This document shows, in pieces, positions 3,801-24,863 of a stretch of 24,863 bases of DNA (its first letter is position 1; each line of letters starts with the position of its first letter). Origin of the DNA: a virus; IMG/VR virus record IMGVR_UViG_3300007540_000095, positions 1 through 24,863 of that record; one strand, written 5' to 3'. The notes under the pieces were generated by a model. That model was not told the origin of the DNA and did not search any database. It saw nothing but the letters and a program-made list of their open reading frames with translations. The translations under genes were made by a program, and so were the position numbers.

Positions 3801-6306
3801 TACTAATAGCTTCAGAAAAGCTCATACCCTTAGTATCATCCATTAGCTTTTGCAGAGCGTCAGTATCAGCCTTTATTGCAGCAGTGTCTACAACACCCGT
3901 ATAATTAAGTGTGGGATCATAGCTAATTATCTTATCTAACTCTTTCTGTATTTCGTCTCTGTTTATTATCTGAAGCTCTATAGGTATATCAGTTATAGCA
4001 GACAAATCTGCACGCACCGTAGAGCTAAACCCATCATCGAGTTTTTCAAAACCTTGAAATACTTTTACTATCTGGTCCGCTGATTTGCCAGTAGCAGCTA
4101 TTATAGAAGCTATTTCATATATATTTTTTTGGTATTTTGCAGATTCTAGTACAAGTTTTTGCTGAGTCATTAAGTATGCTTTAGCTACAGGATCTAATTT
4201 AGCAGAAACTCCATATTGATCTTCTAAAACTGCTAGTGCTTTAGTGCTTAATTCTGCAACAGGAGCACCAAGCTCAATCTCTATTTTATTGAGAGCATTT
4301 TTATAAACTGCCTTTACTTTTGTCATAGACTCTTCGCTAGCTACTACAGCTTCATTTCCTACTTGTGAAAATAGATAAGTTAAGCCGCCTACAATTGCAC
4401 CAGCAGCCGCGCCTACACCGGCGGTAACCGCGCCTCCCCAAAGAGCTGCTAAAGCGCCCGCACCAGCACCCGCACCTACTGAACCAAAAAATCCACCACT
4501 CGATACAGCATCTGATAAAGTTATGCTAGACTTAGTAGAAACATCGGTGAGTACTTTTGATACTTCTTTGACTAAGTCTTCTTTAGTCTTCTCAATTTCA
4601 ATAGTAATACCTAGCTTTTTTCTTTGTTTAAATTTAAAGGTATCTAGTCCACGAAGCTGAGCATTAGCTTGCTGTATATTATCTAAACTACCGCTAACTA
4701 ATCCTGTAAATACTTTACTAGCGTTTGCAGTAGCTACGTCTGTAAAAAACCCGCGTATAGTCTGCCCTAATCCTTTTAACCAGGCACTAAACTCATCACC
4801 TTTACCCATAGCCTTTGCTATAGCAGAACCTAGTATGCTAAATATAGAAGCAGCGCTTAGCAAAAAACCACCTAAAGATACCATGCGTAAAGCAAGAGTA
4901 GATATAGCCACTATAGCAGCACCCGACCTTAGTACCACTGTACTAGCAAATTTAGCGAAGGCAGCACCACTAGTAGCACTTGCAGCTGTTACAGCTTGTA
5001 ATTGAGTAGTTGTCGCTCTTAGTAGAACTCCGGTAGCTTGTAACTTTTTATTAGCATCAGTTAAAGCAGCATTAGCAGCAAGTCTAGCAGTAGTGCCTGC
5101 TTGAGTTGCTGCTCTATCTTGTCTAGCTGCTAATACTGCTTGAGTTTCCGTAAGCCTAATTGTTTTTAAATTATCAATTCTTTTCTCTAATACTGTCTGT
5201 GCTTTTGCTAACTCTTGTGAGTTTAATTTTCTCTGCGCCGCTATTTCTTTAAGAGCTTTTAGCTCAGGTCGTAGACCACCCGCAGTACCTTTACTAGCTA
5301 AACTTATACTAGAAACAGCCTGCTGTGCTGCAACAACTCTCTCTGTTGAAGCTTTAGTTAGGCCTATTAGGCTATTGCTTATTTTTGCAGCAATGTTGTC
5401 TACAGTATTTTGAAAACTTTTCAGCTTGTCACTAATTACAGATAGAGTCTTACCTAGTACGATAGAGCCAAGAACTCCAAAAGCACCTATAGCAGCTCCT
5501 AAATTATTAGTAAAAAAGTCTGCTAAGGGCGCTAAACGTTCCGCAATAAAAGAGCCTAACTGAGTACCCAGGTCTATAATACGCTTTCCAAAAGCTTCAA
5601 TTTTTTCTGCTGCTGTAGGAACTGTAGTATTTATAGAACTAAATTTTTGTTGACCTTCTGCTATTACAGAGTTAACAAAAGCTTGCCTTCTCTCGTACTC
5701 ACTAAGCTGTGATACAGTCTTACCTATAGCAGCTGCGTAGGCCCTAGTTGCCGGCTCGATTTTAGTGTATATACCTAGTTCATCTAAAAGTTCAGTTTCC
5801 ATCTTAGCAGAACCTCGTACTACTCGTGTGTACGCGTCCCCTAAATCTCTACCGAGGGCTCTAGAGGCTTTAAGTGCTACCTCCGATAATCCCTCTATTT
5901 GAGAGGTGTTAAAACCCGCACTTAAAGCAAGGTTGGTTTGCTGTGCAGATTCTACCAAACTAAGTTGACCCTTAGTTATTTTTTGTACATTATTTAATAT
6001 TTCTTTACCGGCAATACCACTAGCAGCGGCTAGAGAAGTAAGGCCCTCAACCGTTTGTAGCGCTCTCGCGCTATTAGCAAGCGCAGAGAAAGCAGCTTCT
6101 AAAGCAAAACTAGTAGCTGCTGCTCCAGCATAGGCACTTACTAAACCACCTAAACCTTGAGCCTGAGCAGCAAAAGACCTACCAGCTCCGGCAGAAGATT
6201 GCCCGAGTCTAGTCTGAGCACGACCTAAACGTTCTAAATCCGCTGCTGCTCTGTCCGCACCCGCAGTCTGAAGTCTAGTTAGAATAGTATTTATAATACC
6301 TGCCAA
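850..6306 (-). CDS. Tail tape measure protein
   Basis: At 1818 residues this is the longest gene in the window and follows the two tail chaperones, the standard tape measure position. Residues about 90-250 form the common tape measure N-terminal helical domain (for example TSLAAASGIAGKEI and LLDELGIYTKIEPATRAYA). Hydrophobic Gly/Ala-rich segments lie near 267-292, 455-500, 600-645 and 1685-1700, as expected for a protein that enters the host membrane. A long charged helical stretch (about 1180-1310, with RREIAEQERTNALAEIEAQY) is probably coiled coil. The C-terminus carries the typical GGSIQQFAAGG...VPALLEPGEFVIRR motif. At roughly 0.15 nm per residue the tail would be about 270 nm (inference). 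The start codon is TTG, immediately after the preceding gene's TAA and in the same frame, with only a weak AAGG upstream. Confidence 0.95.
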   Translation of the reverse strand: MAGIINTILTRLQTAGADRAAADLERLGRAQTRLGQSSAGAGRSFAAQAQGLGGLVSAYAGAAATSFALEAAFSALANSARALQTVEGLTSLAAASGIAGKEILNNVQKITKGQLSLVESAQQTNLALSAGFNTSQIEGLSEVALKASRALGRDLGDAYTRVVRGSAKMETELLDELGIYTKIEPATRAYAAAIGKTVSQLSEYERRQAFVNSVIAEGQQKFSSINTTVPTAAEKIEAFGKRIIDLGTQLGSFIAERLAPLADFFTNNLGAAIGAFGVLGSIVLGKTLSVISDKLKSFQNTVDNIAAKISNSLIGLTKASTERVVAAQQAVSSISLASKGTAGGLRPELKALKEIAAQRKLNSQELAKAQTVLEKRIDNLKTIRLTETQAVLAARQDRAATQAGTTARLAANAALTDANKKLQATGVLLRATTTQLQAVTAASATSGAAFAKFASTVVLRSGAAIVAISTLALRMVSLGGFLLSAASIFSILGSAIAKAMGKGDEFSAWLKGLGQTIRGFFTDVATANASKVFTGLVSGSLDNIQQANAQLRGLDTFKFKQRKKLGITIEIEKTKEDLVKEVSKVLTDVSTKSSITLSDAVSSGGFFGSVGAGAGAGALAALWGGAVTAGVGAAAGAIVGGLTYLFSQVGNEAVVASEESMTKVKAVYKNALNKIEIELGAPVAELSTKALAVLEDQYGVSAKLDPVAKAYLMTQQKLVLESAKYQKNIYEIASIIAATGKSADQIVKVFQGFEKLDDGFSSTVRADLSAITDIPIELQIINRDEIQKELDKIISYDPTLNYTGVVDTAAIKADTDALQKLMDDTKGMSFSEAISKRLEALKKKGETASAYLKALSLLTEAEKEALASGEEIARTLNIGQSFSESITAGEGLNAILFRTTDLLMSTSSAIQSGTIDYERFSQATSNIGVALVEAGEGAIVLNNKIEATEEAFKQAIAVKGANALTEEEKTRYVTLLASLGMQLHLAKETTAVELEKLDILKKQENTIKTMSDIDNFIKSVTPKDQSIFGLELDIFKARAKNPAEELAITIEYLKSITNGYSDATEKVSVYRKSLDDIEDSHLKLLLSSATAENAESIAKTIDALEKYSAVLKDNKIAVTDLNKSTVKEYEPVRSAIIRVGGAATKAADAITALGKQALSMATKFMSEAIASYSSLINDLNINMDNLVAEERILKLTFEADMSQITRDIDIIKQEGLIEQLGLQVSLSNAKVDAGTTGPVEGAKDENILQQRILEERRHLLHLEMGNALMAIEARREIAEQERTNALAEIEAQYKLQADKIAADVKHVNALIALYAENINSQQAVNAQLVNGFGEVGNGLLTGLSTVFASGATALQQAVQETWSGASAVGFTAITPPDMSAIKTNFEALATDFTNTANDAQVALINNKLAEIEAEGTRHTRSMELLDAEAEKVGATYDAKFAALDLAGDIEGANAIKRLGDAAKEAAGGADKGAKAIDSLTGRLSSIQSSIDSAVNTAFSSLNSLIMYGEGSAKEIAFAFFRSIQETLFEKLISEPLSNIISNWLTGVIYDMVGGTDIMGSPLSGVVGSIAGGTTEQLNVNTMGQGAFTAGTAMEGLGSTVASSTQLAVNQINTAQQQFAAAMQRFSGGTQTAANTSANKIQSGGQQLTTKVTTTGQTVAQGTVAAGTAVGSAGTTFTSLLQSFWPMLIMMGITALVSKKASGGSIQQFAAGGSPIMAQTLASGGQLRDRVPALLEPGEFVIRRPAARAIGGPALRSMNATGNVPTNSAPIINFKNEGSPKDVEASQPKFDGENYVIDIITRDLSNNGPIRRSLRSGGI

Positions 6307-6636
6307 TTACCTTGCTCTCTTTGCTTTAGACAGCTGCTCCTGCTCTTTACGTTTCTGAGCGTAGTAGTCACCTAATTCTTTTTCTGCTATTTTTAGTAGC
6401 TCAAACACAGAACGTCTATTTTCTATCTCGTATATTTCCATTATAGCTAGCAGACCGCTATAATCTTTACCTAACCAAGTACCACCCATCCCTTCCCAAT
6501 TATCGGGCAAAGATTCTAGTAGTACTAAAGCTAGTTGGGAGTCTAAAGATAGTTCAGAAGCGCCAATAGGCATTTGATTTTCATCAGGCTCCCAACCCAT
6601 CTGCTCACACATAGCTAAATATTGATTTAAGTTCAT
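6307..6636 (-). CDS. Tail assembly chaperone, downstream part (GT-like T domain), made by frameshift
   Basis: This 109-residue ORF (MNLNQYLAMCEQMGWEPDE...) sits between the first chaperone and the tape measure, the place of the lambda T region. It has a plausible ATG at 6636, but the only Shine-Dalgarno-like run (GGGGGAGG) ends one base before the ATG and lies in the 3' arm of a hairpin, so independent initiation should be poor. The frame is open upstream through the first chaperone's stop to a canonical slippery heptamer, so a -1 shift adds LKKYLRHSFNGGG and joins the two into a 266-residue fusion. Residues 1-65 are acidic and helical (DNWEGMGGTWLGKDYSGLLA); the tail is basic (KRKEQEQLSKAKRAR). 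Chaperones of this kind bind the tape measure and load tube protein. The gene ends with TAA immediately before the tape measure start. Confidence 0.8.
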   Translation of the reverse strand: MNLNQYLAMCEQMGWEPDENQMPIGASELSLDSQLALVLLESLPDNWEGMGGTWLGKDYSGLLAIMEIYEIENRRSVFELLKIAEKELGDYYAQKRKEQEQLSKAKRAR

Positions 6637-6681
6637 ACCTCCCCCATTAAAAGAATGGCGAAGGTATTTTTTTAGTTTTTT
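6637..6681 (-). promoter_or_regulatory. Programmed -1 ribosomal frameshift signal
   Basis: On the minus strand the heptamer A_AAA_AAC (6681-6675) lies in the correct phase: zero-frame codons GAA AAA AAC, then stop TAA at 6674-6672. After a 9-nt spacer comes a hairpin: 5' arm ACCTTCGCCATT (6665-6654), loop CTTTT, 3' arm AATGGGGGAGGT (6648-6637). It makes 11 pairs (one G-U) and one G-G mismatch. The -1 frame then runs without stop into the 109-residue downstream ORF. Slippery site, spacer and stem are all as expected for the conserved tail-chaperone frameshift of long-tailed phages. The stem also hides the only SD-like run before the downstream ATG. Confidence 0.88.
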
Positions 6682-7106
6682 TCGTCTTCCTCGGCTTTTT
6701 GGCGAGTAAAGTTCTCAAAATCATTTAGAGCATCGCTAACAAACTGGTCAAAAATTGTAGAGTTAGAAAGAAGGTCTACAGCGTCTTCTCTGCTATATTC
6801 TACTAGCTCTTCTTTATTCATAGCAGTAATATCAACAGGTAGTAGCATAGGAAGATGTTTAATTTTTAAACCTCTCCAGCCTAAAATAGCACGTTCTGCA
6901 TAGTTTTCTATGAATTTTTGAGAATCTACTTCTTCTTCGCGCTGTCTGGTTTTTTTACTAAATTTGTACGTAACACTAGCGTTTCGTATCTTTAATAGAT
7001 CTTCTCTTGTTAAGTACTGTAGTTGTACTTCAAATCCGTCAATATCAGGATACTCTACCCAGGTAGAAGTATCTTTTGCTATCATCATAGATTTTAGTTT
7101 ACTCAT
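6672..7106 (-). CDS. Tail assembly chaperone, upstream part (lambda gpG-like)
   Basis: The chosen start is ATG at 7106 (MSKLKSMMIAKDTSTWVEY), preceded by GAGGG about 8 nt upstream, giving 144 residues. The frame is open further to a TTG at 7157, but that stretch overlaps a terminator-like hairpin and has no ribosome site. The protein is charged and helical with a beta-like start (WVEYPDIDGFEVQLQYL) followed by LTREDLLKIRNA, a pattern typical of gpG-like chaperones, and WRGLK in the middle. The C-terminal EEDEKN is encoded over the slippery A_AAA_AAC, so most ribosomes stop here and a minority shift into the downstream T-like domain. It lies between the major tail protein and the tape measure. 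Role: keeps the tape measure soluble and nucleates tube assembly; only transiently present, not part of the virion. Confidence 0.85.
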   Translation of the reverse strand: MSKLKSMMIAKDTSTWVEYPDIDGFEVQLQYLTREDLLKIRNASVTYKFSKKTRQREEEVDSQKFIENYAERAILGWRGLKIKHLPMLLPVDITAMNKEELVEYSREDAVDLLSNSTIFDQFVSDALNDFENFTRQKAEEDEKN

Positions 7107-7119
7107 TGTAGTTTCCCTC

Positions 7120-7198
7120 AAATAAAATGAACGCCCACTAGTTGATCTGCTTTTCAAAGGTGAGGGGGGTACCTTGAATTGCTAGCTAGTGGACGTTC
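7120..7198 (-). terminator. Nested stem-loop after the tail tube gene (terminator or attenuator)
   Basis: In the transcript GAACGUCCACUAG (7198-7186) pairs along all 13 positions, with one U-G, with CUAGUGGGCGUUC (7141-7129). It is followed by AUUUUAUUU (7128-7120). Inside the large loop a second stem forms between UUCAAGGU (7178-7171) and ACCUUUGAA (7161-7153), with one bulge. It starts about 31 nt after the major tail protein stop and ends just before the chaperone ribosome site. It could be a leaky intrinsic terminator, an RNA-stabilising 3' end, or a processing site. The pairing is seen directly; the function is inferred. Confidence 0.55.
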
Positions 7199-7228
7199 TA
7201 TGTTTAATTTTACCCCTCGTTAGTAGTA

Positions 7229-8497
7229 TTAAGACTTAGCAGCTATTATAGTAACTTCTCCGCCCTGACCACAACCATCTCCAGGTTCTTGTGCAACAAA
7301 GTTAACACTCATAGAGATTACGTCTTCAATCGCAAGTTGTGGAAACTCAAATTGTACTGCATCTAACTGGAAGGCTACATAAGGAGCAGTAGTACCACCA
7401 ATTATTAGATTTGCGTTAGCAGTAGAAGAAGAGGAAGTCCTAGCGTCATTCGCAATATTTCTTAAAAATTGCGCTGATTGCGTATCGCCAGAACGCAGAT
7501 ACATAGTAGCAGAACCTGTTACAGCTCTTGTACCTGTAAACTGACCTATCGGTGCGTTTAGTGTAGCTAGTTCTTCTGGAGTTACATACGTAATATTGTT
7601 ATTATATTCGAACGATAGTTCGGTAACAGGGAATGTATATGTAACATCAGCACCACCCTCGCTAGTTGCGTGATGAAACTCAATAGTACTTAGACGATTT
7701 TTAATAAATGAGTTAGTACCTATACCAGCAGCAACATTCATCTGATTAAACGGGTGATAAGCAGCTACCGAATCAAAGGCAACTACATTGGAGTTAGCTG
7801 TAACAGTAGTTCCGTTATTTAGCACTCCCCCAAATACGGATACAGCGTTATCTCTAGAAGCATCCTCTAATTCTTTAAGAGTAGTTCCAAAACCTGTCCA
7901 AGTAACTGTAGCTATTTCGTCTATACCAGCGTCTACTGTAGCCTGATTTACTGTACTATTAGCAACTTGGTAAAAAACGTTACCTAGCTTAAAGTACATT
8001 TGATATTCGGCAGCAGTAGTAAAGTTAGTACGAGATGCATGTGCACCAGTAGAAGCAGCTACGTTAGTAGTAAATAGTGTGCCTTGGCTCCATACAGACT
8101 GTTCATCAGTTCCATCTGAACAAGCAGTGTTAGATACCATAGCTTGCCACATAAACCAATCTGCTATAGGTTTTGCGTTACCGGTAGCAGTAGTGCCAGC
8201 ACCTGAAGTACCAGCTGCAGCACCTGTAATAGCACCTGTAGGGCGAAGGTAAACTTGTAAATTCCAATCAACAGGGTTGATTGCAGTATTAAATCTTTTT
8301 TGAGATCTATCTGGGTTAGTACCAGACTCCATCGAAGTAATATCTTGGGTTTCAGCAGAAGAAGTAACAGCGAAACCAGCTAATACCTCTAATTTCCAAG
8401 TATTAGAAGGAGTCATTGAAGTAACTGCTCCACCGTTAACTAAGTCAACAGTAGAAAAAAACACCTCAGAATCTCTTTGTAAATTAAGACATGACAT
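7229..8497 (-). CDS. Major tail tube protein
   Basis: This 422-residue protein is rich in Ala, Thr, Asn and Val with alternating beta strands, and lies between the tail terminator and the tail chaperones, the standard tube position. Short signatures are the N-terminal NTWKLEVLAGF, the NPVDWNLQVYLRP strand and a C-terminal EDVISMSVNFVAQEP strand, a pattern seen in tube proteins that stack as hexameric rings. The start ATG at 8497 has a strong AAGGAG about 10 nt upstream, fitting high expression. It is about twice the length of a minimal tube protein, so it may carry an extra surface domain; the middle (about 200-330) is the likely insertion, but this is inference. Two cysteines, near each end (C3 and the GDGCGQGG segment), are notable. 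A strong stem-loop follows the gene. Confidence 0.85.
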   Translation of the reverse strand: MSCLNLQRDSEVFFSTVDLVNGGAVTSMTPSNTWKLEVLAGFAVTSSAETQDITSMESGTNPDRSQKRFNTAINPVDWNLQVYLRPTGAITGAAAGTSGAGTTATGNAKPIADWFMWQAMVSNTACSDGTDEQSVWSQGTLFTTNVAASTGAHASRTNFTTAAEYQMYFKLGNVFYQVANSTVNQATVDAGIDEIATVTWTGFGTTLKELEDASRDNAVSVFGGVLNNGTTVTANSNVVAFDSVAAYHPFNQMNVAAGIGTNSFIKNRLSTIEFHHATSEGGADVTYTFPVTELSFEYNNNITYVTPEELATLNAPIGQFTGTRAVTGSATMYLRSGDTQSAQFLRNIANDARTSSSSTANANLIIGGTTAPYVAFQLDAVQFEFPQLAIEDVISMSVNFVAQEPGDGCGQGGEVTIIAAKS

Positions 8498-17733: not shown

Positions 17734-17779
17734 AAATTAATTAGTAGTAATATTGTAGTTATGGCAAAATAATTAATTT
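17734..17779 (-). terminator. AT-only inverted repeat at the end of the sugar cassette
   Basis: A perfect 10-bp inverted repeat (AAATTAATTA at 17779-17770; TAATTAATTT at 17743-17734) with a 26-nt loop overlaps the stop codon of the GT-A/FkbM gene and is followed by more U. The position suits a terminator, but the all-AU stem is weak. Confidence 0.28.
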
Positions 17780-19005
17780 AACAAAGACTTACGTTTAAAA
17801 TGATAGTCACCATCTACATCAGTTTTACAAAAGTTAGTTACCAAGCTAAAACCTATACTATCTAAATAAGATATGACTTCAGCAACTTTAGGGGCCTTAT
17901 CGTTATAGTTTTTGTGCTGAGCCTCTAAAATTATATTGTTAACACTTTCTAGTGTAAAACTAGCCCCTCTTAAGATGTCTAGTTCCGCACCTTGAACATC
18001 TAGCTTTAGTAAGTCGGGGGTTGGCCAGTTATTATTTTTTACTAAACTATCTAGAGTAATAGTACTTCTTTTAGTTGCGTGGCTTTCGCTATACGCAGAA
18101 CTATTTTCTTTGTAGTAGCTGTTACCTCCAGGATTGTGGCTATCTTCATAAAATTTTACTTGTTTATTATCTATATCAGATAGTACGGATATTGAATAAG
18201 GGTAGTTAGATTGTTTTAAGTATGGCTCAACAGATCTAGTAGCGTCTATCAAGTAAAAACTAGCAGTAGGCCATGATTCTTTAGCTTTTCTAGTCCAGTG
18301 AAGTAAACTCGCTCCTATATCATACACAACTAGGGGTGCTTCAATACTGTTTAAGTACTGAGCATGTTTTGTAGGTAGTAAATCTGCTTCTGCAACTTTA
18401 TCTAAATGACTTTTGTTATCTACAGTATGCTGTATAGTACCTACATGATTACATTTAATAGATACGTCCGCCCAAGCACTAAAATTAGCAGCTCTTGCTT
18501 TAGCACAGAAAAATATATCTTCAGAGATAGTACTTGCATGATTTATAGCAGACGAATAAACAAAATGAGGGTAATCTAATGTTCTATATACGTCAGAGTT
18601 TACTAACACTGCGCCAAAACCACAAGCTGCTATTCTTATAATTTCTAAATGGCTAATAGCACTATAGGGTATATTCTCTACGCCGGATCCTGCGTCTTGA
18701 TATATTTCTAAAATATGCTGACCTGGCTTGCGCTGTATATAAAGACCCGAAATAATAGGTTTATTAGCGCGTAACATCTTTACTAACGCATCATTCGGTA
18801 GAATGATATCCGAATCAACATGTAACACGTAGTCATAGCGCTTACCCCAATCAGCTATTAAATTTCTTACTTGATCAATTTGATAGCCGTAGAAAAACTG
18901 CAACTCAGTGCTAAAATTTGGAGGAACTATTAAGTCATAAATAGATTTCATGGTTTCTGTTTCTACATATTTATTAGTAGGTACAGCAATTAATACTCGT
19001 TTCAT
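17773..19005 (-). CDS. Fused GT-A glycosyltransferase and FkbM-family methyltransferase
   Basis: Residues 1-215 are a GT-A type glycosyltransferase: RVLIAVPT, the metal-binding DSD (64-66) in LHVDSDIILP, ISGLYIQRKPG, the conserved SED (161-163) and a later His (H187). Residues 222-400 are an FkbM-type SAM methyltransferase: VVYDIGAS (226-233), ITLDSLV, and the family signature PDLLKLDVQGAELDILRGA (330-348). FkbM enzymes O-methylate sugars. The two activities in one chain suggest adding a sugar and capping it by methylation. The start overlaps the upstream GT4-GT2 gene by 4 bp (ATGA), so the pair is co-translated. Substrate and acceptor are unknown; target may be virion proteins or the host surface. 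Confidence 0.87.
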   Translation of the reverse strand: MKRVLIAVPTNKYVETETMKSIYDLIVPPNFSTELQFFYGYQIDQVRNLIADWGKRYDYVLHVDSDIILPNDALVKMLRANKPIISGLYIQRKPGQHILEIYQDAGSGVENIPYSAISHLEIIRIAACGFGAVLVNSDVYRTLDYPHFVYSSAINHASTISEDIFFCAKARAANFSAWADVSIKCNHVGTIQHTVDNKSHLDKVAEADLLPTKHAQYLNSIEAPLVVYDIGASLLHWTRKAKESWPTASFYLIDATRSVEPYLKQSNYPYSISVLSDIDNKQVKFYEDSHNPGGNSYYKENSSAYSESHATKRSTITLDSLVKNNNWPTPDLLKLDVQGAELDILRGASFTLESVNNIILEAQHKNYNDKAPKVAEVISYLDSIGFSLVTNFCKTDVDGDYHFKRKSLLN

Positions 19006-20942
19006 GTGTATCTTATAACCGCATTTCTCATTTGTTCTTGTGGCCTAACCTTGTAGTCGTTAATAGGGTTTTTATCATTATAAACTGCAACAATTTCTTT
19101 TACTGCTTTTGGGTTTTTAGCTCTTGATATTGTCTCATAAAATAAGGGATTATCGGCTCCAGCTAACATCCATTCACCATCTACTTTAAAAGCTGCGTCA
19201 TCTAAATCTAAAGCTATTGCCCCAGAAAATGTTCTAAGATGAGTGTAGGGTACTAGCCAATTAAATTTATGTTTATGATAATCAATTGTATTTTCTGGGT
19301 AGTCTTGTGCAACTAAGGGGATATTGTCTGCTAAACTCCACATAGACCCATAAGTAAAATCTATATTTTTATATAAATTATTATAAAAGTGAAAAATTGA
19401 ATTGTTAGGAACAAGCCAATCATCACCATCTAAAAGCATAACAATATCGTCAGGTTGAACATAGTCACTAAAAGCTTTAATTTGGTTTTTAATAGCTCCT
19501 TGCCTGCTAGTATTATTATAAACTACAGTCTTATCAGTAGCTAATCTACTAAGAACTTCTAAGCTATTATCTGTTGAAGCATCATTTATAAGTATGTGAA
19601 TGTAATTATCGTAGTCTTGTTGATTAACAGACTGAATATGGTTAGTTAAATAGTCTTGAGCATTATAAAAAGGAGATATTACTACAATACGACGTTGTTT
19701 TCCGTAAGAACGGTATATACGTCTATCTTCTATATTATTAAACCGTCTATTAAATACTCTAGACACTGTATCATTTATAATAGAAACTTGTCTATATTTT
19801 TCAACTGGAAATGGTTTTTCTAACATTGTATGAAAATGCTGGTCCCATTGAAGTGCTATAGTTTCCCAACTAACGATATTCTTTACTACATCACAATAAT
19901 TAGCTTTTTGTTGCCACAGATATGTATCGTTATAAGCAGAAATTGCTATATCAGCTAACTTACTAGTTTGTTCATCTTCATCAACTGTATTAAATAGGGA
20001 ATTTGGGCTAATAGGATAAGGTATTTTATAGCAAGCTAGGTCTATAGCAGTTTCTTCTAATGCGCCAAAAGAATTAGTAATAATAGGAGTATTATAAAGT
20101 AAAGATTCTAAACTACTAATACCAAAAGTCTCGGGAAAAGCAGCGGGATAAAGCATGAAGCTTGCGTCAGCTAATATGTCTGCAATTTCTTTTTGTTTTA
20201 TAATACCCGTAAATGTTACGTCTAAAGCTGCAATACTAGAATCTTTAGATAGATTACTAACAGTTTTACCTTGCTCATCTAAACTTCCATCTTTCATGTT
20301 ATAATAACCGCCTATACAAGTAAGATGGGCACTAGGTATCTTTTGTTTAATTTTTGGCCAAACTTTTGTTACTAGTGGTACTAATCCTTTAGTAGCTGAG
20401 GCATTATAAACAAAATGATTTTTATCTTTTAACTTAATATCAGCGGTTCTATAACTAGTAGCACCGTTACGGGTTTGCCAGAATTTATGCTTTAAAGTTT
20501 CAAACATACGCCTAGTACCGTGAGATGCATTGCTAAAATAGTTTGAATGGAAATCTGAAAGCGTAAATACCTCGTCTATATAATTCCTTACTAGCATATC
20601 CTCTAAAAATTCATCTCCTTTACAAAAGGTATCGTGCATCCAGAGTACTCGTTTTTTAGCTTTAGCGCATATATGTACAAAAGGGTTATTAGAGAAAAAA
20701 GGTAAAACAGATCTAGATGATATTACTATATCATACTCCTCAGCAGTAATATTGTTAGTGTACAAAACTCCCTCATATACACCTTCTTTATCACAATTAT
20801 TATAAACAGTAACATTATAATTAAGTTTTACTAATTCTTTAGAAAGTAAAATTACTGCAGATTCACTACCGCCTAAACCTTTGTACTTTAGGGTATCTCC
20901 ATTATATGTTAAGCCTAAAGTATCTATAATTGCTATCTTCAT
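19002..20942 (-). CDS. Two-domain glycosyltransferase (GT4-like + GT2)
   Basis: Residues 1-385 are a GT-B fold, GT4-type enzyme: the donor-binding GLGGSES (22-28), RVLWMHDTFC, VFTLSDFHSNYF, TFTGIIKQKEIADIL and the sugar-nucleotide E-x7-E region in YPAAFPETFGISSLES (about 260-275). Residues about 415-640 are a GT2 GT-A domain: RRIVVISPFYNAQDYL, LINDASTDNSLE, the DGDDW metal site near 504, and a C-terminal domain with WMLAGADNPLFYE. Two unlike transferases in one 646-residue chain can add two sugars in sequence. AAGGA lies 6 nt before ATG 20942, after a 118-bp gap that separates it from the fibre block. The next gene adds two more activities. Confidence 0.88.
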   Translation of the reverse strand: MKIAIIDTLGLTYNGDTLKYKGLGGSESAVILLSKELVKLNYNVTVYNNCDKEGVYEGVLYTNNITAEEYDIVISSRSVLPFFSNNPFVHICAKAKKRVLWMHDTFCKGDEFLEDMLVRNYIDEVFTLSDFHSNYFSNASHGTRRMFETLKHKFWQTRNGATSYRTADIKLKDKNHFVYNASATKGLVPLVTKVWPKIKQKIPSAHLTCIGGYYNMKDGSLDEQGKTVSNLSKDSSIAALDVTFTGIIKQKEIADILADASFMLYPAAFPETFGISSLESLLYNTPIITNSFGALEETAIDLACYKIPYPISPNSLFNTVDEDEQTSKLADIAISAYNDTYLWQQKANYCDVVKNIVSWETIALQWDQHFHTMLEKPFPVEKYRQVSIINDTVSRVFNRRFNNIEDRRIYRSYGKQRRIVVISPFYNAQDYLTNHIQSVNQQDYDNYIHILINDASTDNSLEVLSRLATDKTVVYNNTSRQGAIKNQIKAFSDYVQPDDIVMLLDGDDWLVPNNSIFHFYNNLYKNIDFTYGSMWSLADNIPLVAQDYPENTIDYHKHKFNWLVPYTHLRTFSGAIALDLDDAAFKVDGEWMLAGADNPLFYETISRAKNPKAVKEIVAVYNDKNPINDYKVRPQEQMRNAVIRYT

Positions 20943-24115: not shown

Positions 24116-24863
24116 TTAACCGAATACTATCGCCATAGCAATAGCTTTGCCTGTAGAAACTCCGCCAGCAGTACCTGCCGACCCTGTATAACCTATATCG
24201 CCTGCAGATCCTGTATAACCAGCGCCTGCTGACCCGGTATAGCCTATATCACCTGCTGACCCTGTATAACCTATATCGCCTTGTATACCTGCACTGCCGG
24301 TATAACCTATATCGCCTTGTATACCTGCACTACCGGTATAACCTATATCGCCTTGTATACCTGCCGACCCTGTATACCCTATATCGCCTTGTATACCTGC
24401 ACTGCCTGTATAACCTATATCGCCTTGTATACCTGCACTACCGGTATAACCTATATCGCCTTGTATACCTGCACTACCGGTATAACCTATATCACCTGCA
24501 ACGCCTGCTGAACCGGTATAACCTATATCGCCTTGTATACCTGCACTACCGGTATAACCTATATCGCCTTGTATACCTGCCGACCCTGTATACCCTATAT
24601 CGCCTGCAACGCCTGCTGAACCGGTATAACCTATATCGCCTGCAACGCCTGCTGACCCTGTATAACCTATATCGCCTTGTATACCTGCACTGCCTGTATA
24701 ACCTATATCGCCTTGTATACCTGCACTACCGGTATAACCTATATCACCTGCAACGCCTGCCGACCCTGTATAACCTATATCGCCTGCTGACCCTGTATAA
24801 CCTATATCGCCTTGTATACCTGCACTGCCTGTATAACCTATATCGCCTTGTATACCTGCACTA
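24116..24863 (-). CDS. Collagen-like repeat fibre protein, partial (5' end outside window)
   Basis: An open minus-strand frame enters from the right edge (first full codon at 24862) and ends TAA at 24118-24116, giving 248 visible residues. Nearly all are Gly-X-Y triplets built from a 12-residue unit GSAGIQGDIGYT, with variants GSAGVAGDIGYT and a shorter GSAGDIGYT. One triplet is broken (GSA-GA-GYT). The C-terminus leaves the repeat and ends GGVSTGKAIAMAIVFG, a tail I associate with marine phage collagen-like proteins. Collagen repeats form trimeric rods, so this is probably a fibre shaft. No start codon is in the window, so total length is unknown. It is the first gene of the fibre block seen here. 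Confidence 0.85.
   Translation of the reverse strand, partial: SAGIQGDIGYTGSAGIQGDIGYTGSAGDIGYTGSAGVAGDIGYTGSAGIQGDIGYTGSAGIQGDIGYTGSAGVAGDIGYTGSAGVAGDIGYTGSAGIQGDIGYTGSAGIQGDIGYTGSAGVAGDIGYTGSAGIQGDIGYTGSAGIQGDIGYTGSAGIQGDIGYTGSAGIQGDIGYTGSAGIQGDIGYTGSAGIQGDIGYTGSAGDIGYTGSAGAGYTGSAGDIGYTGSAGTAGGVSTGKAIAMAIVFG
24174..24863 (-). repeat. 36-bp (and 27-bp) coding tandem repeats
   Basis: About 19 back-to-back units encode GSAGIQGDIGYT-like collagen repeats. Most are 36 bp; a few lack one triplet trio and are 27 bp. Units vary at synonymous sites (GGT/GGC/GGG; AGT versus TCA/TCG for the same Ser) in a mosaic order. The array continues beyond the right edge. There are no unique spacers and the frame is continuous. 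Confidence 0.92.

Follow-up and report, generated by a model that had tools for sequence, protein, structure and literature searches.

The window analysed here, a stretch of 24,863 nucleotides from an uncultured phage, very probably (about 0.93) carries a programmed −1 frameshift signal in the tail assembly chaperone genes of a tail module related to that of T5-like phages. An earlier note, made from the letters of the window, had proposed that a −1 frameshift joins two tail chaperones, and this proposal is now strongly supported by gene position, family matches, conservation, covariation, and synonymous constraint. The cassette is a standard, well-conserved G/GT −1 frameshift, a trick already known; its own value is that of a clean and deeply sampled case, with well over 100 natural slip-site and stem variants from uncultured phages. 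More than in the cassette, the main interest lies in the +1 register of the orthologous gene pair in T5-like phages and in a structured RNA upstream of G.

The cassette in the window

All features of the frameshift cassette lie on the minus strand (Table 1). The 3′ end of G reads ...GAA GAC GAA AAA AAC TAA, which places the heptamer in the phase A_AAA_AAC, with a zero-frame stop directly after it and a 9-nt spacer before the stem, as the earlier note had described. The stem comprises 12 positions, i.e., the 11 pairs given in that description and one internal G.G mismatch (6659/6643) that went unmentioned there; the loop, CTTTT, is 5 nt long. In the −1 frame the sequence reads KK-LKKYLRHSFNGGG-MNLNQYL... 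and remains open through the 109-residue ORF to 6307. This continuation had also been read correctly from the letters, with the minus strand left unstated.

Table 1. Coordinates of the frameshift cassette, its neighbouring genes, and the RNA upstream of G in the window
Feature	Position	Strand	Basis
Major tail protein, upstream of G	8497-7229	-	phrog_3575, E 7.6e-44
Structured RNA between major tail protein gene and G, single copy	7107-7238	-	covariance model, 99 bits (the model includes the window among its sequences)
Upstream GAGGGG; in relatives, the loop of the first small hairpin	7213-7218	-	sequence
Outer stem, 5′ strand GAACGTCCACTAG, 13 bp	7186-7198	-	sequence, covariation
Inner hairpin AAGGT / ACCCCCCTC loop / ACCTT	7157-7175	-	sequence, covariation
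Outer stem, 3′ strand CTAGTGGGCGTTC	7129-7141	-	sequence, covariation
G Shine-Dalgarno GAGGG, complementary to the C-rich loop	7115-7119	-	sequence
G-like tail assembly chaperone, 144 aa, zero-frame product	7106-6672	-	ORF; PHROG phrog_313 'Tail assembly chaperone', E 6e-14
Slippery heptamer AAAAAAC, phase A_AAA_AAC, zero frame of G	6681-6675	-	sequence; invariant in 56/56 relatives
Zero-frame stop TAA abutting the heptamer	6674-6672	-	55 TAA and 1 TAG in 56 relatives
Spacer TAAAAAAAT, 9 nt, heptamer to stem	6674-6666	-	sequence
Putative stimulatory hairpin ACCTTCGCCATT / CTTTT loop / AATGGGGGAGGT	6665-6637	-	fold; pairing in relatives; synonymous-shuffle z
Hairpin 5′ arm ACCTTCGCCATT	6665-6654	-
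Hairpin 3′ arm AATGGGGGAGGT	6648-6637	-
−1 frame extension LKKYLRHSFNGGG plus T domain, giving the predicted GT fusion	6681-6307	-	phrog_3914 tail assembly chaperone, E 2e-12
T ORF proper, 109 aa	6636-6307	-	ORF; phrog_3914
Tape measure protein, 1818 aa, immediately following the T stop	6306-850	-	phrog_3779, E 2.5e-31

Frameshifting of the G/GT type in the −1 direction is conserved across long-tailed phages, phage lambda among them (PMC5009743). As in lambda, the order is major tail protein, G, T, and tape measure, with two small ORFs separating the genes for the major tail protein and the tape measure; a tail terminator gene also precedes G. Further points of likeness are the −1 register of T, which is open back to the shift site, a slippery heptamer of the X_XXY_YYZ type in phase near the end of G, and a short downstream domain that would be fused. 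An RNA structure downstream of the site, common although not universal in such systems, is likewise present at the end of G. In contrast to lambda, the heptamer of the window is A_AAA_AAC, a stop follows it directly, a hairpin lies close downstream, and the profile matches of G and T are to phrog_313 and phrog_3914, the T5-type chaperone families. By protein, the nearest annotated relatives are T5-like Demerecviridae. The haloarchaeal virus HCTV-2 has a g-t frameshift at A_AAA_AAC (PMC5009743), identical in heptamer, gene pair, and direction; its host, however, is archaeal, and the comparison made here is one of the signal.

A nucleotide search of the region against phage records returned no match, and protein searches were therefore used. 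Pfam gave no model for G or T. Relatives of T were not confirmed in any genome (host) contig, and no host is therefore proposed. The virus record itself is 24.9 kb long, and related contigs reach 117 kb. No intrinsic terminator was found between the genes. The tape measure protein starts with a TTG directly after the T stop (6304-6309, minus strand); most relatives start it with ATG, GTG or TTG, often as TAA-TTG or TAAATGG, an arrangement suggesting that T and the tape measure protein are translated in tight coupling.

We infer the slippage itself, its ratio, and the functions of G and GT. Most ribosomes translating G would halt at the TAA after A_AAA_AAC and release the 144-residue G protein, and a minority, held by the downstream hairpin, would slip back one base at the heptamer and continue in the −1 frame. 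These slipped ribosomes would make the GT fusion, with the 109-residue T domain joined via LKKYLRHSFNGGG; the job of the hairpin would thus be to stimulate slippage. By analogy with lambda, coating of the tape measure protein may fall to G, and recruitment of the major tail protein to the T portion of GT. A_AAA_AAC is a far weaker slip site in E. coli than A_AAA_AAG (PMC5009743); efficiency would therefore depend on the hairpin and on the host of the phage.

Conservation of the slip site and stem, and competing explanations

A bare heptamer proves little, as AAAAAAC is common in the window (15 occurrences on both strands, against about 7 expected). Its conservation was followed in 56 distinct junctions from viral contigs that were found by protein search alone and were long enough to cover the site. 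Each of the 56 keeps the in-phase heptamer and has a hairpin, and the distance from heptamer to T is 38 nt throughout. The codon 5′ of the heptamer may encode Ala, Val, Ser, Glu or Ile, yet it always ends in A. AAAAAAC is also found in 126/126 distinct junctions of the clade, a set that adds further searches and is not independent, since one of these selected on the heptamer and stem. A stop follows the heptamer directly in 110 of the 126 and is absent in 16. In the divergent subclade formed by these 16 junctions, the G frame extends across the stem, typically as far as a TGA that overlaps the ATG of T; most members keep this ATG, and T could conceivably be initiated there independently or by coupling.

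Constraint at the junction extends to synonymous positions. Synonymous change at the three slip-site codons is zero, compared with a median of about 0.5 elsewhere. It is also zero at the transframe Tyr codon, which is always TAC even though these genes otherwise use TAT twice as often. The transframe segment, compared among close relatives, shows 495 synonymous and 393 non-synonymous changes if read in the −1 frame; the two remaining frames give 109/783 and 94/831. By this pattern of substitutions, the stretch linking the G stop to T is coding in the −1 frame and under purifying selection.

The stem is supported by the relatives more than by the window, whose hairpin as a single-sequence fold is only modestly unusual (z −1.9). 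When each of 97 distinct junctions was compared with synonymous shuffles encoding the same −1-frame protein, the natural sequences folded more stably, with a mean z of −3.7, and 90% of them out-folded 95% of their own variants (p 0.05 or less). Because the variants encode the same protein, this result indicates selection on RNA structure beyond coding. The earlier note had named covariation of the stem in related phages as a check, and compensatory changes are indeed seen: the lower 8 pairs are paired in 92.8% of cases across 33 relatives, compared with 41-58% in slid controls, and the seventh and eighth pairs show double changes (G-C to A-U and C-G to G-C), accompanied by many G-C/G-U exchanges along the stem. 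The upper half is poorly conserved, with pair 24-38 failing in 13 of the 33. Stem conservation partly overlaps −1-frame coding, and structure shuffles of a kind that takes no account of relatedness were exceeded only moderately. A pseudoknot is not proposed, as neither a conserved loop nor synonymous constraint past the 3′ arm was seen, and an upstream Shine-Dalgarno-like stimulator of the kind found in dnaX was rejected, as only 29 of 105 relatives have such 4-mers 5-22 nt ahead of the heptamer. With heptamer and structure conserved across relatives, a chance origin is excluded; a sequencing artefact or pseudogene is excluded as well by the recurrence of the cassette among relatives.

The earlier note had further suggested a dual use for the stem, in which the frameshift hairpin also sequesters the Shine-Dalgarno sequence and ATG of T, so that no free T is made. 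The 3′ arm of the window does abut the ATG of T, and GGAGG (6642-6638) lies one base from it, as had been noted; it is not the only such run, however, since an overlapping GGGGG (6645-6641) provides a second, G.U-containing register, overlooked at the time, at a spacing of four bases that may be usable. A GGAGG 1 nt from a start codon is probably too close for initiation, and the second register is missing from GGCGGAGGT, an arm that is common among relatives. Among the 110 distinct junctions with a stop after the heptamer, T begins with ATG in just 52 and otherwise with TTA, ATT, ATA, GTA, GTT, CTA, CTG, CTT, ATC or GTG; this position is one for a hydrophobic residue, Met being one option among several. 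On a tree of 105 sequences, the presence of ATG changed at least 11 times, 6 of them forced by well-supported branches, and the heptamer was never lost.

The 3′ arm occurs in two registers, and in 24 sequences it lies one codon further upstream. In this shifted register, GGAGG would stand about 4 nt from T, and yet 0 of the 24 have an ATG; in the normal register, where GGAGG is only 1 nt away, ATG is present in 45 of 75. Since ATG is absent from the shifted register and from half of the junctions, the stem does not track the start codon, and it is retained where there is nothing to mask. In favour of dual use stands, besides the local arrangement in the window, the divergent subclade, in which the mostly retained ATG overlapping the G stop makes a second start conceivable. 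Overall, the dual-use proposal is improbable. Masking could occur incidentally in individual phages such as that of the window, but it is not supported as a conserved function or as what the stem is kept for, and the G-rich 3′ arm is explained by its pairing with CCUYC together with its coding of Gly-Gly. As about half of the relatives lack a start codon for T, T can be reached in these only by frameshifting or from a distant internal start.

The fusion might instead arise at the level of transcription, if RNA polymerase added an A within the A run and the altered mRNA encoded E-K-K-L instead of E-K-N-L. Transcriptional slippage of this kind is used by some phage and IS genes (PMC5009743), and the window offers a run of 7 A's, with a second A7 run after the stop. 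In 80 of 99 distinct relatives, however, the run has just 6 A's, and none of the conserved C at heptamer position 7, the phase, and the downstream hairpin is required by such a mechanism, which makes it highly unlikely. A run of 6 A's is short for slippage by bacterial RNA polymerase. That G and T are not joined at all, T being started independently or by coupling and the heptamer arising as a side effect of coding Lys-Asn in an AT-rich genome, is scarcely credible: the window does have an ATG at T and abundant AAAAAAC, but half of the relatives lack a T start, the −1 frame from the G stop to T is under purifying selection, the synonymous positions of the slip site are frozen, and the RNA structure exceeds what coding explains.

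Orthologous chaperones of T5-like phages

Programmed −1 frameshifting, the preferred reading for the clade of the window, does not appear to extend to its nearest annotated relatives. T5-like Demerecviridae carry orthologues of G and T (among them T5.143/T5.142 and Sugarland 177/176), and here too the two genes precede the tape measure gene in this order; the G orthologues are 26-35% identical (tblastn E down to 2e-16) and the T orthologues about 23-31%. In these phages, however, T lies in the +1 and not the −1 frame, and both A_AAA_AAC and a hairpin of the window type are lacking. The earlier note had stated that related phages keeping both ORFs but not the heptamer or stem would speak against its proposal. 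The T5-like phages are formally of this kind, yet a different signal, apparently a +1 signal, is present in them.

The +1 register was found in 16 of 16 T5-like phages from many genera, including T5, Sugarland, SPC35, My1, pVp-1, Ceto, VCPH, and phi 3. Each G carries TTT CGT or TTT CGA in frame, 3-14 codons ahead of its stop, and from this TTT CGN onwards the +1 frame stays open through T; the other Phe codons of these chaperone genes are divided between TTT and TTC in a ratio of 56 to 49. Past the G stop and upstream of the annotated ATG of T, a comparison of SPC35 with misterkot gives 6 synonymous changes and 1 non-synonymous change in the +1 frame, against 0/8 and 0/7 in the other frames. 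For pVp-1 and Ceto, the corresponding counts are 9/1 in the +1 frame and 0/10 and 1/8 in the others. The almost exclusively synonymous changes in the +1 frame and the invariant UUU CGN together point to +1 frameshifting at this motif, which is the core of the influenza PA-X site.

The genome announcement for Sugarland describes its tape measure chaperone, as in T5, as being without a predicted frameshift signal (PMC6256483), and searches of the open-licence literature yielded no account of a +1 shift at UUU CGN in T5-like phages. On the sequence evidence, the orthologous pair appears to have changed the direction of its frameshift, −1 in one clade and +1 in the other. No intermediate between the two clades was found; a search with the G of a Vibrio phage matched only two viral contigs. 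Such a change of direction would open the evolution of recoding signals to direct tests in the laboratory phage T5.

RNA upstream of G

The segment between the major tail protein gene and G almost certainly forms a real structured RNA. From 5′ to 3′, it consists of a small hairpin with the loop TGAGGGG(G), a 13-14-bp stem enclosing a second small hairpin with the loop CCCC(C)TCA, and the G Shine-Dalgarno sequence GAGGG(G). In the window, the stem of the first small hairpin is degenerate. Across 37 relatives, 95.9% of cells are paired, compared with 46-53% when the pairing is slid, and changes on both sides are compensatory at 22 of 30 pairs overall and at 14 of 14 in the long stem. Every clade member tested, even the very divergent ones, has a single model match, immediately in front of G. 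The model found no such RNA at T5-like loci. A comparison with Rfam gave no match at the gathering score, and no report of an RNA upstream of G was found in the open-licence literature; the RNA is apparently undescribed.

The C-rich loop of the inner hairpin is complementary to both the upstream GAGGGG and the Shine-Dalgarno sequence of G. The G-run of the first loop matches the C-run of the second in length, between 3 with 3 and 6 with 6, in 62 of 77 sequences; this speaks for pairing between the two loops. It is possible, if somewhat doubtful, that a kissing-loop RNA toggles the C-rich loop between the upstream G-rich hairpin loop and the Shine-Dalgarno sequence, thereby controlling G translation. 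A wider, tentative reading would have the chaperone dose set by two RNA devices in series, the kissing-loop RNA acting on G and then the −1 hairpin. If this were true, the −1 hairpin would fix the ratio of G to GT after the upstream RNA had controlled G, and the sister T5-like clade, which is without both RNA devices, would reach GT via a +1 shift at UUU CGN. As an RNA family, the structured RNA upstream of G would be new, and its role in the dosage of tail assembly would be open to checking.

Elsewhere in the window, a tandem DNA repeat close to the end of the contig takes the form of a plus-strand ORF (24281-24511) built from short, nearly identical units (YTCT.GITYIAL). Two large minus-strand ORFs (17773-20942), whose sequence looks glycosyltransferase-like and FkbM methyltransferase-like by eye, lie between the terminase gene and those at the contig end.
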